A stretch of DNA of 64,000 nt from Actinomycetota bacterium (GTDB lineage: Bacteria; Actinomycetota; Geothermincolia; Geothermincolales; RBG-13-55-18), in assembly GCA_003598015.1 (NCBI GenBank), contig QZKE01000053.1, positions 1-64,000 of the forward strand, in the 5' to 3' direction. Shown piece after piece: positions 328 to 5,472 of this stretch (position 1 is its first letter; each line of letters opens with the position of its first letter). The translations under genes and the position numbers were made by a program. Below the pieces are notes generated by a model. That model worked only from the letters and a program-made list of their open reading frames with translations. It made no database searches and was not told the DNA's origin.

Positions 328-1407
328 GTGGAGAAAGACAAGGCTCTGGAGATGGCCCTGACTCAGATCGAACGCCAGTTCGGGAAGGGCTCTATTATGA
401 AACTCGGCCAGGACAACCATCGTTTTCAAATCGCCGCGATACCCACGGGCGCCCTCTCCCTCGACCTGGCGCTAGGCATAGGCGGGGTACCGCGGGGAAG
501 GGTGGTGGAGATCTTTGGCCCGGAATCCTCGGGGAAGACGACGCTGGCATTGCACATCATAGCGGAGGCGCAGAAAACGGGCGGCATAGCCGCGTTCATC
601 GATGCCGAACACGCGTTGGACCCCGGTTATTCCAGGGCACTGGGAGTAGACGTCGATGAGCTGCTCATATCTCAACCCGACACCGGCGAACAGGCATTGG
701 AGATAGCGGAGATGCTGGTGCGCAGCGGGGCATTGGACGTCGTGGTCATAGACTCCGTGGCCGCGCTGGTACCGCGCCTCGAGATAGAGGGGGAGATGGG
801 CGATGCCCATGTCGGCCTCCAGGCGAGGCTGATGTCACAGGCCTTACGCAAGCTGGCCGGAACCATAAACAAGTCTAATACCACGGCCATCTTCATCAAC
901 CAGCTACGGGAGAAGATAGGGGTGATGTTCGGCAGCCCGGAGACGACTCCGGGGGGGAGGGCGCTTAAATTCTATGCCTCCGTACGGCTTGATATCCGAA
1001 AGATCGACAGTATCAAGCAGGGTGCCGAGATCGTCGGCAACCAGGTGAGGGTGAAGGTGGTCAAGAACAAGATGGCGCCCCCCTTCAGAAAAGCGGAATT
1101 CGATATCATGTACGGAGAGGGCATATCCACGCAAGGCAACATCCTGGACCTCGCAGTAGAGAACGGCCTGGTGAAGAAGAGCGGCGCATGGTACACCTAC
1201 GGGGAAGACCAGCTCGGCCAGGGGAGGGAAAACGCCAAGCAGTATCTCATAGATAATCCGGCGATAAACAAGGAATTGGATTTGAAGTTGAGGGAGATGC
1301 TCAGCCTTCCCCGGGCGGAGGCCCAGATCATCCAGGCCGAAGGCGAGCCTCAGGAGGTAGGCAACGGAAAAGCCATTCAGGAGGTAGGCAACGGAAAAGC
1401 CATGTAA
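328..1407 (+). CDS. recA: recombinase RecA
   Basis: RecA binds single-stranded DNA, drives ATP-dependent homologous strand exchange and stimulates LexA self-cleavage. The 359-residue product has the normal family length: a short N-terminal helix ending GKGSIMKLG, Walker [10 protein letters not shown] near residue 66, the MAW-like EALDP region, Walker [11 protein letters not shown] near 140, and the L2/[11 protein letters not shown] region near 200. The GTG start is set by AGGAGG at 316-321, six bases upstream. recX follows 46 bp later, as in most bacteria. The C-terminal tail is odd: it ends in two perfect copies of QEVGNGKA encoded by a 27-bp tandem duplication. Identity is certain; only the tail is unusual. 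Confidence 0.98.
1351..1404 (+). repeat. 27-bp tandem duplication at the 3-prime end of recA
   Basis: Two direct copies of a 27-bp unit (1351-1377 and 1378-1404) differ only in the last base and end at the recA stop codon. Each copy encodes QEVGNGKA plus I or M and contains CAGGAGG, which resembles a Shine-Dalgarno core. The unit keeps frame, so it simply lengthens the flexible RecA tail. Confidence 0.9.
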
Positions 1408-1453: not shown

Positions 1454-1933
1454 ATGAAACTGCTTTCCTACCGCGCTCACAGTATGCACGAACTCACATT
1501 CAAGCTGCGTAAGGGGGGCTTCTCCACAGCGGTTATCGAGGAAGCAGTTGCGGAACTCGAAGATAGAGGCCTGCTCGATGATACCCGCCTGGCCCGGGAT
1601 GCCGTTACGGGCGGCCAGAGGGCGGGCAGAAGCCGCGCGAGGATATACGCCGACCTGCGCAGGCGAGGCATAGCCAGGGAGGACGCCGAAGTTGCCTTGC
1701 AGGACTGCTTCGACCCCGAGGAAGAACTGAAAACCGTTGCAGGCTTCATGCGCAAGAGCCTGTCGGGATCACCCGCCACGGTCGGCAGCGAGGAAATCGA
1801 TAAAACCGCCCGCAGGTTGTTCAAAAGGGGCTTTTCGGCCTCTGCCATAGCCGGCGCACTCGAAGGCCTTCACCCTGGCGAGGGGGGCTGTCACGTGCCC
1901 CATTTTCTTGACAGTGATAATCAGCTCTCCTAG
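1454..1933 (+). CDS. recX: regulatory protein RecX
   Basis: RecX modulates RecA by binding within the filament groove. The 159-residue product has the three-helix repeats of the family: LSYRAHSMHELTFKLRKGGF and GLLDDTRLARDAV, then the second repeat SRARIYADLRRRGI, and a final KTARRLFKRGFSASAI repeat. In-frame codons back to a stop at 1385 contain no ATG, GTG or TTG, so ATG 1454 is the first possible start, although its ribosome-binding site is weak. It is probably co-transcribed with recA. A near-consensus promoter lies over its last codons (1908-1936), with the recX stop codon forming part of the -10 hexamer. Confidence 0.88.
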   Translation: MKLLSYRAHSMHELTFKLRKGGFSTAVIEEAVAELEDRGLLDDTRLARDAVTGGQRAGRSRARIYADLRRRGIAREDAEVALQDCFDPEEELKTVAGFMRKSLSGSPATVGSEEIDKTARRLFKRGFSASAIAGALEGLHPGEGGCHVPHFLDSDNQLS

Positions 1934-1936
1934 AAT
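1908..1936 (+). promoter_or_regulatory. near-consensus housekeeping promoter overlapping the recX stop codon
   Basis: TTGACA (1908-1913), exactly 17 bp, then TAGAAT (1931-1936). The predicted transcript starts near 1943 and would run through the structured leader into rny, or stop at the terminator at 2061-2086. Confidence 0.8.
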
Positions 1937-1942
1937 TGAATC

Positions 1943-2086
1943 AGGCCTAAGGATATTGATCGATATCCAAGCGTTTTATCGCTTGTTGGATATACCGTAA
2001 GGAGCGAGAAGAGCTGATTAAACGGTAATTACGGTATATATAAACTATCGATATAGCCTTAAGCCGAGCTGGATCTCGGCTTTTTT
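1943..2086 (+). ncRNA. candidate attenuator leader or small RNA upstream of rny
   Basis: About 144 nt lie between a near-consensus promoter and an intrinsic terminator. Visible pairings are: GGCCTAAGG (1944-1952) with CCTTAAGCC (2057-2065, one mismatch); ATATCCAA (1963-1970) with TTGGATAT (1986-1993), extended by GCG/CGC; and TACCGT (1993-1998) with ACGGTA (2031-2036), the last two sharing one base. The 3-prime strand of the long-range stem shares bases 2061-2065 with the terminator, so the two folds exclude each other, as in transcriptional attenuators and riboswitches. I do not recognise a known riboswitch core. It could be a leader of rny or a free-standing small RNA. Structure is seen in sequence; function is inference. 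Confidence 0.6.
2061..2086 (+). terminator. intrinsic terminator between recX and rny
   Basis: Perfect 8-bp stem AAGCCGAG/CTCGGCTT with a 6-nt loop, running directly into six T residues. It lies 57 bp before the rny start codon, so it would attenuate rny unless the upstream strand 1944-1952 captures its left arm. Confidence 0.88.
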
Positions 2087-2142
2087 ACGTTGTAGATCGG
2101 GGTCTCAACCCCGGGTTTATATATATGAAGGGAGGAATGGAA

Positions 2143-3678
2143 ATGTTAATCGCGATAATCGCAGGTATTGTGGCCCTGGTTATCGGAGTAATAGCGGGTT
2201 TCTTGGCTCGCAAGTATATGGCTGAAGCAAAGATATCGTCCGCGGAGGAAGAAGCAAAGCGGGTACTTCAAGATGCGGAGAAGTCTTCGGAGGCCAAGAA
2301 ACGTGAAGCTTTACTTGAGGCTAAAGATGAGATATTCACGATGCGCAACGACGCGGAACGCGATATCAAGAACCGCCGTAACGAACTGCAGCGTTTCGAG
2401 CGAAGGCTCCTGCAGAGAGAGGAGCAGATAGACAACCGCTCGGACAACCTCGAGAAGAAAGAGAAGTCGATCTCGGCAAAGGAGAACGAGGTCCAGGGGC
2501 TACGTTCCGAGGCGCAAAAGATCCTGGCGAAGGAGAAGGAACAGCTCGAGAAGGTGGCCGGTTTGTCCAAAGACGAAGCGAAACAGCTTCTCTTGAAGCA
2601 GGTGGAGGAGGAGACGAAGAGGGAAGCCGCCCAGGTCATCAAGAAGATCGAGAACCGCCTGCGCGATGAAGCCGAGAAAAAGGCGAAGAACATCATCGCC
2701 AATGCCATTCAGAGATGCGCATCCGACCATGTGGCCGAGACCACCGTCTCCGTGGTGCCGCTCCCCAGCGACGAGATGAAGGGGAGGATAATCGGGAGGG
2801 AAGGCCGTAACATCCGCACCTTCGAGACGCTGACCGGGATCAACCTGATCATCGACGACACGCCGGAGGCCGTTATTCTCTCGAGTTTCGACCCAGTCAG
2901 ACGCGAGGTAGCCCGCCTCACCCTGGAGAGGCTGATAACCGACGGACGTATCCAGCCGGCACGCATCGAGGAGATGTACGACAAGTCAAAGGCCGAGGTG
3001 GATGCGGAGATCAAAGAAGTAGGGGAACAGGCCGTATTCGATGTCGGCCTGCACGGCGTCAACCACGAGCTCATGAAGGTGCTAGGCCGCTTGAAGTACC
3101 GTACCAGCTACGGCCAGAACGTTTTGAAGCATTCCGTAGAGGTCGCCCACCTCGCGGGTCTCATGGCCGCGGAGCTGGGAACGGATATCAAGCTAGCCAA
3201 GCGAGCGGGACTCCTGCACGATATCGGCAAGGCCATCGACCACGAGGTAGAGGGTTCTCACGCCATAATCGGAGCGGAACTCGCCAAACGGCTCAAAGAA
3301 GGCGATCCGGTTATCCACGCCATCGAGGCGCACCATGAAGAGGTCGAGGCGAGGTCCATCGAGGCGGTGCTCGTGCAGGCGGCGGACGCAATAAGTGCCG
3401 CCAGGCCGGGAGCGCGCAGAGAGACCCTGGAGAGCTACATCAAGCGCCTGGAGAAGCTGGAGACCATCGCCGATTCCTTCGAGGGCGTTGACGGATCATA
3501 TGCCCTCCAGGCCGGTCGCGAGATACGGGTCATGGTCAAATCGGATATCATAGACGACCTCGGATGCGTGACCCTCTCCAGGGAGATCGCCAGGCAGATA
3601 GAGGACGAGCTCGAATACCCCGGACAGATAAAGATCACGGTGGTAAGAGAGAAGCGCGTGGTGGATTACGCCAAATAG
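2143..3678 (+). CDS. rny: ribonuclease Y
   Basis: RNase Y is the membrane-anchored endoribonuclease that initiates mRNA decay in many bacteria lacking RNase E-centred turnover. The product has an N-terminal transmembrane helix ([20 protein letters not shown]), a long charged coiled coil to about residue 190, a KH domain around [15 protein letters not shown], and an HD phosphohydrolase domain with H and HDIGK ([12 protein letters not shown]), giving the usual 510 or so residues. ATG 2143 is preferred because GGGAGG (2130-2135) sits seven bases upstream; in-frame ATGs at 2125 and 2137 are on or before that site. The attenuator-like leader upstream suggests regulated or autoregulated expression. 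Confidence 0.97.
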
Positions 3679-3912: not shown

Positions 3913-5028
3913 TTGACCACGGGGAATAACAGCGAAAAAGACGGACTCCTCGATTTCGTCCGCAGGTTTACGGACCACGACACCTTCACCGTTGAAGAAG
4001 AGCTGGGACACGGTTATGTAAGGCTGAAGGTAACCGAGGCCGAACGACGCCAGGCGCTGCAGGATATACGCTGCGTCGAGGACGTCGTCAAAGAGCTGGT
4101 GCGCAATGCGCGTGACGCGGGCGCCACCGGCGTTTATGTTACCTTCCAGAAGGAGAGAGGCCGCTGGCGGAATATCACCGTTCTGGATAACGGCAGGGGA
4201 ATACCACAAGGCCTGCACCGAAAGATATTCGAGGCCAGGGTAACCTCTAAGGTGCGGGACGTCGTGGAGGATCGCTTCGGCGTGCATGGCAGGGGAATGG
4301 CCCTTTTCTCCATCAAGCAGGTCGCCGACGACATCCAGCTGGTGCGTTCCGAGGAAAGCCGCGGTACCATAATCCACACGCGCATCGATACCACGAAGCT
4401 ACCTGAGAAAAAGGATCAATCCACCTTCCCCAGGCTGGAGAGCGACGATGAGGGCAAGATCGCCATCGCAGGCGGCCCGCACAACGTGCCGCGGGTCCTG
4501 ACGGAACTGGCGCTCAGCTCCGACGGGCTGAATATCTTCCTGGGATCCAACGCCGAGATACTGTCCACCCTCTACCATGATTCCGTGGAACTGCGCAAGA
4601 CTTGGGCCGCGGGAGAGGATGATGTCAGCCGGCCGGTATGGTTCGAGCTTGGAGGCATCAAGGAGGGGCGAATGCTGCACGGCTTCTGTGCGAACCAGCT
4701 CGGCCTTTGCGTCTCCGAGCGCAACGCCTTCCGCATACTCGAGCTGGAGATAAACCCCCTCATGAGCATCAACGAGCTCGTGCGCGAGGGTAGCATCGCC
4801 CTGCCGGCGAGACGGGCGGACCTGCACCGTCAACCGCGGGATAATTGGAGCGACCATCTAGCCCGCCGCCTGAACCAGGATGATATATCCCGTATCAGCG
4901 ATTCGCTGCAACTGGTCTTCGAGGACATAGGTGGGAAATATTACCTGCAGGCCGAGGCACCTGTGATCAAGAGACGCAAGAACCGCATTATCATCTCCCT
5001 GGGGCTGCACGAAAAGGAAGATGGCTGA
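3913..5028 (+). CDS. GHKL-fold ATPase of unknown function
   Basis: The N-terminal half is a Bergerat (GHKL) ATP-binding domain of the MutL/Hsp90/histidine-kinase superfamily: N-box VKELVRNARDAGAT near residue 60, G1 box LDNGRGI near 95, and G2 box GVHGRGMALFSIKQ near 120. There is no His-kinase dimerisation domain, no topoisomerase or MutL C-terminal domain and no membrane segment. The C-terminal 200 residues are not recognisable to me. The TTG start at 3913 has only a weak GGGA element before it. It sits between rny and spoVS, in the recA-rny-spoVS-miaB neighbourhood, so a role in nucleic-acid metabolism or development is possible but unproven. Confidence 0.75.
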   Translation: MTTGNNSEKDGLLDFVRRFTDHDTFTVEEELGHGYVRLKVTEAERRQALQDIRCVEDVVKELVRNARDAGATGVYVTFQKERGRWRNITVLDNGRGIPQGLHRKIFEARVTSKVRDVVEDRFGVHGRGMALFSIKQVADDIQLVRSEESRGTIIHTRIDTTKLPEKKDQSTFPRLESDDEGKIAIAGGPHNVPRVLTELALSSDGLNIFLGSNAEILSTLYHDSVELRKTWAAGEDDVSRPVWFELGGIKEGRMLHGFCANQLGLCVSERNAFRILELEINPLMSINELVREGSIALPARRADLHRQPRDNWSDHLARRLNQDDISRISDSLQLVFEDIGGKYYLQAEAPVIKRRKNRIIISLGLHEKEDG

Positions 5029-5208: not shown

Positions 5209-5472
5209 ATGATGGAAGTGCTTAAAGTATCCTCGAAGTCGAACCCCAATTCCGTTGCCGGAGCGCTGGCGGGAGTCCTGCGCGAAACCGGCAGCGCGGA
5301 GATCCAGGTCATCGGGGCGGGCGCTCTGAACCAGGCCGTAAAGGCGATCGCCATTGCCAGGGGATTCGTGGCGCCGAGCGGCATAGACCTGGTATGCATA
5401 CCCGCATTCACGGATATAATCATCGATGGCGAGGAGAGGACGGCCATCAAGCTTTCCGTCGAGTCGAGATAG
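5209..5472 (+). CDS. spoVS: stage V sporulation protein S (SpoVS, Alba-like)
   Basis: The 87-residue product matches the very conserved SpoVS family almost throughout: EVLKVSSKSNPNSVAGALAG, GALNQAVKAIAIARGFVAPSG and CIPAFTDI. SpoVS is a small dimeric Alba-fold protein needed for late sporulation steps in Bacillus but found in many non-sporeformers. Two ATGs (5209, 5212) are possible after GGGGAGGAG at 5194-5202; the family normally begins MEVLKV, which corresponds to 5212. Its position near rny and miaB repeats a conserved arrangement known from Firmicutes. A spore cycle cannot be deduced from this gene alone. Confidence 0.95.
   Translation: MMEVLKVSSKSNPNSVAGALAGVLRETGSAEIQVIGAGALNQAVKAIAIARGFVAPSGIDLVCIPAFTDIIIDGEERTAIKLSVESR

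Follow-up and report, generated by a model that had tools for sequence, protein, structure and literature searches.

The DNA analysed here, called the window below, is a stretch of 64,000 nucleotides from an Actinomycetota MAG, and the relatives closest in rny include Candidatus Solincola daggyaiensis. Genes in the window are arranged in the order recA, recX, a leader region and rny, the gene for RNase Y, an enzyme that initiates mRNA decay in many bacteria (Table 1). The rny product carries the Pfam domains RNase_Y_N (2.3e-63), HD (8.2e-20) and KH_1 (4.5e-5), and its start is most probably at 2143, behind the Shine-Dalgarno sequence AAGGGAGG and 57 bp past position 2086. An RNase E/G homologue is also encoded in this genome. 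At the end of recA (328-1407), a short repeat encodes QEVGNGKA twice in the RecA C-terminus. Downstream of rny, a gene for a HATPase-domain protein (3913-5028) sits between rny and spoVS (5209-5472; Pfam E 2.8e-39).

Table 1. Features of the recA-recX-rny region, in positions of the window.
Feature	Position	Strand	Description	Support
recA	328-1407			Pfam RecA 9.7e-144
recX	1454..1933	+	upstream gene, 159 aa	Pfam RecX_HTH1 2.3e-15, RecX_HTH2 5.9e-8
Leader promoter	1908..1936	+	sigma-70/A-type; TTGACA 1908-1913, spacer of 17 nt, TAGAAT 1931-1936	11/12 consensus
Structured leader RNA	1943..2086	+	about 144 nt, predicted +1 to end of U-tract	fold z -3.3; layout conserved
Antiterminator 5' strand	1944..1952	+	GGCCUAAGG	P 0.99 in nascent fold; cross-family covariation
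Internal hairpin	1968..1985	+	AAGCG-UUUUAU-CGCUU	MFE fold; same-place hairpin in f1 relatives
Long internal helix	1990..2040	+	UAUACCGUAA ... UUACGGUAUA, large loop	MFE fold
Antiterminator 3' strand	2057..2065	+	CCUUAAGCC	2061-2065 common to terminator
Intrinsic terminator	2061..2086	+	GCCGAG/CUCGGC stem; stem-loop AAGCCGAG-CTGGAT-CTCGGCTT at 2061-2082, U-tract to 2086	sequence pattern
Second GC-rich hairpin	2097..2114	+	in the terminator-to-Shine-Dalgarno interval	sequence
Shine-Dalgarno of rny	2128..2135	+	AAGGGAGG	sequence; conserved in relatives
rny	2143..3678	+	putatively regulated gene, RNase Y, 511 aa	Pfam domains (see text)

The earlier note on this DNA had described a near-consensus promoter whose -10 element holds the recX stop codon, and a structured segment of 144 nt that ends in a terminator 57 bp before rny. 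Coordinates of both, which are predictions from the sequence, proved exact, and the TAG inside the -10 is indeed the stop codon of the recX reading frame. The RNA from 1943 to 2090 folds at z = -3.3, better than all of 200 shuffles, and the portion of the leader before the terminator 3' arm reaches z = -3.9. In the long internal helix, the CCGU and ACGGU strands are invariant within the family of the window (f1). A promoter of at least 10/12 with a terminator at +80 to +190 occurs once in the 64-kb window, and the same combination is found in none of 60 windows simulated by a first-order Markov model. A GC-rich hairpin like that at 2097-2114 is kept in f1 and is absent from the other families.

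Furthermore, the RNA can take two folds that exclude each other. The stem between 1944-1952 and 2057-2065, noticed earlier for sharing five bases with the terminator, does share 2061-2065 with it, and the GGCCUAAGG:CCUUAAGCC duplex consists of eight pairs and one C-A mismatch. The proposal of two exclusive folds is also borne out in related genomes, where the long-range pairing and the terminator overlap co-vary across recX-rny spacers that are cis-linked to rny. The best duplex between the 5' and 3' parts of 41 leaders almost always starts at GGC (or GCG/GGU) near the transcript start and ends inside the GCC of the terminator 5' arm, while its sequence differs from family to family. For example, the helix is GGCyUAAGG:CCUUAUGCC in the family of the window, GGCAC:GUGCC in f5, GGCGUAG:CUACGCC in f7, GGCAUA:UAUGCC in f3, GGCGCU:AGCGCC in part of f4, and GGCAAAAA:UUUUUGCC in f24.

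Among 28 representatives, some of which were mis-segmented in a way that acts against the signal, the duplex of a leader's own 5' end with its own terminator arm has a mean energy of -12.6 kcal/mol, compared with -8.1±0.5 kcal/mol for re-dealt 3' strands, and none of 20,000 permutations reaches the observed mean. In 29 of 38 leaders, the duplex beats 95% of dinucleotide shuffles of the leader's own 5' end. When the helices of 29 sequences are aligned, 86.2% of cells are paired against 72.0±1.8 after shuffling (0/500), and the cross-family covariation score is 0.438 against 0.193±0.026 (0/500), with at most 0.187 in slid registers; this alignment is anchored on the predicted GGC:GCC, so that the first three pairs are to be discounted and the signal lies in pairs 4-9. 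Pair counts within f24 alone are uninformative, since the helix is nearly invariant there. Since the 5' ends were misaligned by MAFFT, RNAalifold recovered no more than the terminator in diverse groups, with local helices in addition in f1, and strand-based tests took its place. A blind search of the upstream 130 nt was significant in 19 of 41 leaders of the families for which the switch is claimed.

Folding of the nascent RNA predicts, for 37 of 38 leaders, that the terminator arm pairs with the 5' end (P>0.5). Once the leader is complete, the predicted energies of the two folds differ in most cases by -6 to +4 kcal/mol, the terminator being slightly favoured, and such a balance is what an attenuator would be expected to show. 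For leaders of f4 and f6, the prediction mostly prefers the terminator, by 8-16 kcal/mol, and arm pairing is less certain. As in attenuation leaders in general, an intrinsic terminator lies between the promoter and rny, and an exclusive, covarying alternative helix is present.

Similarity of the locus at the DNA level is confined to the family of the window, and the leader sequence diverges fast between families; leaders of relatives were therefore found by locating rny in each genome and inspecting the DNA upstream. In the class of the window, sampled by 27 genomes with enough upstream sequence, a near-consensus promoter at the end of recX is present in 26 of the 27 (the exception is G008), and a terminator with its U-tract just before rny likewise in 26 (the exception, G013, has a degenerate tail). 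The same layout of promoter, leader, terminator and rny is also found in the sister families f24, f37, f50, f55, f63, f64, f69, f9, f10 and f65. The claim of a switch is limited to the class of the window together with f24, f37, f50, f55, f63, f64 and f69; it is weaker for f9, f10 and f65.

There are less clear cases. In the blind test, an overlapping antiterminator is not supported for f11, f12, f23, f26, f27, f29, f32, f42, f45, f49 and f54 as a group (5/41), and in f11, f26, f27, f29 and f32 a terminator usually precedes rny while the overlap is not detected. In the high-GC families f8, f17, f20 and f48, a recognisable terminator is mostly absent. Of 69 Bacillota rny loci (genome_contigs loci), scanned with a slightly stricter cut-off for the U-tract, 9 have a terminator within 330 nt, and in about 2 it lies no more than 80 bp from the start of the match. 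Some Bacillota recX-rny spacers (L103, L118 and others) also have a strong promoter, TTGACA..TACAAT, after recX, with a long untranslated leader that lacks a terminator.

The terminator might simply end recA-recX transcription, with an ordinary 5' UTR behind it, a level of rny set by constitutive partial read-through, and a stem that does not switch. The preservation of a terminator before rny even in families with no detectable antiterminator would suit this explanation, as would the energies in f4 and f6. However, the strong promoter is located before the terminator and not after it, and covariation extends into the region of the terminator arm itself, so that we regard this explanation as quite unlikely.

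The leader is linked to rny in cis. A covariance model, R1, built from seven leaders of f24 and run against 150 genomes of the phylum, has matches in 10 of them, one copy each and including two families outside the model, and all 10 are directly upstream of rny by coordinates. In most leaders of f4, f5 and f24, the gap between the end of the terminator stem and the Shine-Dalgarno sequence is only 9-19 nt. Additional weak promoter-like matches (9/12) turn up in just two of 43 leaders, in both cases before the end of the terminator stem, and none of the 43 has one behind the terminator. Because of the short gap and the lack of a promoter behind the terminator, transcription of rny must cross the terminator.

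The same linkage bears on the suggestion in the earlier note that the RNA may act alone. An independent gene for a trans-acting sRNA with its own promoter and terminator, rny being expressed by leaky read-through, would go well with the strong promoter, the strong terminator, the stable fold and the conserved single copy. The matches of the model are nevertheless linked exclusively to rny, sequences diverge fast between families, and a covarying overlap of the 5' end with the terminator arm would serve no evident function in a mature sRNA. A solitary RNA is thus less likely than a leader of rny, and we consider it unlikely.

Taken with these results, the region is best read as the 5' leader of rny working as a transcription attenuator, to which we give a probability of roughly 70%. 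The layout, the mutual exclusion of the folds, the covariation, the single-copy linkage to rny and, in many relatives, the lack of space for a promoter behind the terminator are computed; from them we infer termination in vivo and a signal that governs it, and conservation of the bistable leader suggests that it is regulated. In the proposed mechanism, RNA polymerase would start at about 1943 and make about 120 nt of structured RNA, whose first nucleotides (GGC...) would form the antiterminator helix with part of the terminator 5' arm and the segment immediately ahead of it; this helix and the terminator hairpin are mutually exclusive. With the antiterminator intact, polymerase would read through into rny; with the antiterminator disrupted, the terminator would form and the short RNA alone would be made. 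Probably, the cell controls RNase Y by an early stop of its message.

Attenuation coupled to ribosomes through a translated leader peptide would predict a conserved short ORF. Short ORFs with a Shine-Dalgarno-like sequence do occur in some leaders, but only in 10 of 41 and with differing positions and lengths, so that no conserved ORF position was found and an attenuator of this type was rejected as highly improbable.

No family of Rfam 15, which includes riboswitches and protein-binding leaders, matches the leader at the gathering threshold in the covariance-model search that the earlier note had suggested as a check, and nothing credible appears at lax thresholds, where the best match has 20.8 bits against the 51 required. 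6S RNA (RF00013) is alike in its similar size and in being closed by pairing of its ends; the sole RF00013 match of the genome is on another contig (G000:C76) with none at this locus, and this candidate was rejected. A distant blastn search against plasmids gave no match. The author of the earlier note knew of no such leader for rny, which agrees with Rfam and with the literature found: no attenuator leader of rny is described in the literature searched, a coverage that leaves most subscription literature outside. The best reading is an orphan attenuator family, outside Rfam, with the mode of terminator/antiterminator attenuators.

Comparable systems are known. In B. subtilis, trp (TRAP) and rplJL (L10(L12)4) leaders also have exclusive terminator and antiterminator helices before the gene, and the rplJL leader responds to an autoregulatory protein (PMC3913778, PMC4538822). 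The rny leader differs from them in sequence and in having no known ligand or protein, and the 5' end of its transcript is itself the antiterminator strand. The B. subtilis rny gene is similar in encoding RNase Y and in having a sigma-A promoter, a long 5' UTR (164 nt, compared with about 200 nt here) and control in the leader region; it differs in that RNase Y reduces the level of its own mRNA through cleavage in the ORF and the 5' UTR, followed by RNase J1, and the text of that paper does not mention a terminator (PMC10303841). The E. coli rne 5' UTR is likewise a leader of a major endoribonuclease that mediates feedback, whereas it works by expediting cleavage of the rne transcript and not by termination (PMC10303841). 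As an RNA it is unrelated to the rny leader, which has no Rfam match.

A plausible signal for the rny attenuator, by analogy, is negative feedback in which RNase Y or its partners would act on the nascent leader; this is favoured because B. subtilis RNase Y lowers its own mRNA. RNase Y or its complex might act on the nascent leader and free the antiterminator strand, so that polymerase terminates and an endoribonuclease would tune its own transcription via a switch; this specific scenario is offered tentatively, as a possibility with the odds against it. The site of action could be, for instance, the conserved AU-rich ACAUAGAUUG-like loop in leaders of the sister class, in which UUUACAUAGAUUG is conserved in the predicted apical loop. 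The sites of RNase Y have only a weak definition: GA within unpaired, AU-rich RNA that is followed by structure (PMC11780869). The apical-loop motif fits this weak preference by its sequence, a likeness that is no evidence of cleavage. Since RNase Y is anchored in the membrane (PMC11313650), it would be genuinely hard for the enzyme to act on nascent RNA in time, and the signal may therefore be another protein or a condition. A sensor domain shared by all families was not identified, and a small-molecule riboswitch is not indicated. The motif UUUA(C/U)AUAGAUU, which resembles the weak site preference of RNase Y, is conserved in L051, L052, L056, L059, L061, L089 and L170-L172, and in the sister class it falls in the predicted apical loop.

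To our knowledge, the only feedback on the level of RNase Y described for B. subtilis acts on mRNA stability. If the present reading is true, a conserved attenuator of rny would be a second, independent tuning of a global decay enzyme, exerted at transcription termination; it would span several Actinomycetota lineages and provide an orphan RNA family whose signal can be tested.

Other structured segments are also found before rny. In f26 (L089, L209, L214, L215 and L216), the conserved segment comprises GCUUGAGU, a hairpin of GUACCU..AGGUAC type with UAUAGA or AUAUAC after it, GCUCAUGCCCGG and a terminator that is short; antiterminator overlap was not detected in this segment. In f41, a different segment has no clear terminator overlap, and the one tested against Rfam (L088) has no match. 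This segment, GUCAUUUG..GUGAUAUGCGCUCAUCGnCGAUGAG..GGGUGACCAU..CAAAUGUC, is strongly conserved upstream of rny in L088, L205, L207, L212 and L217.
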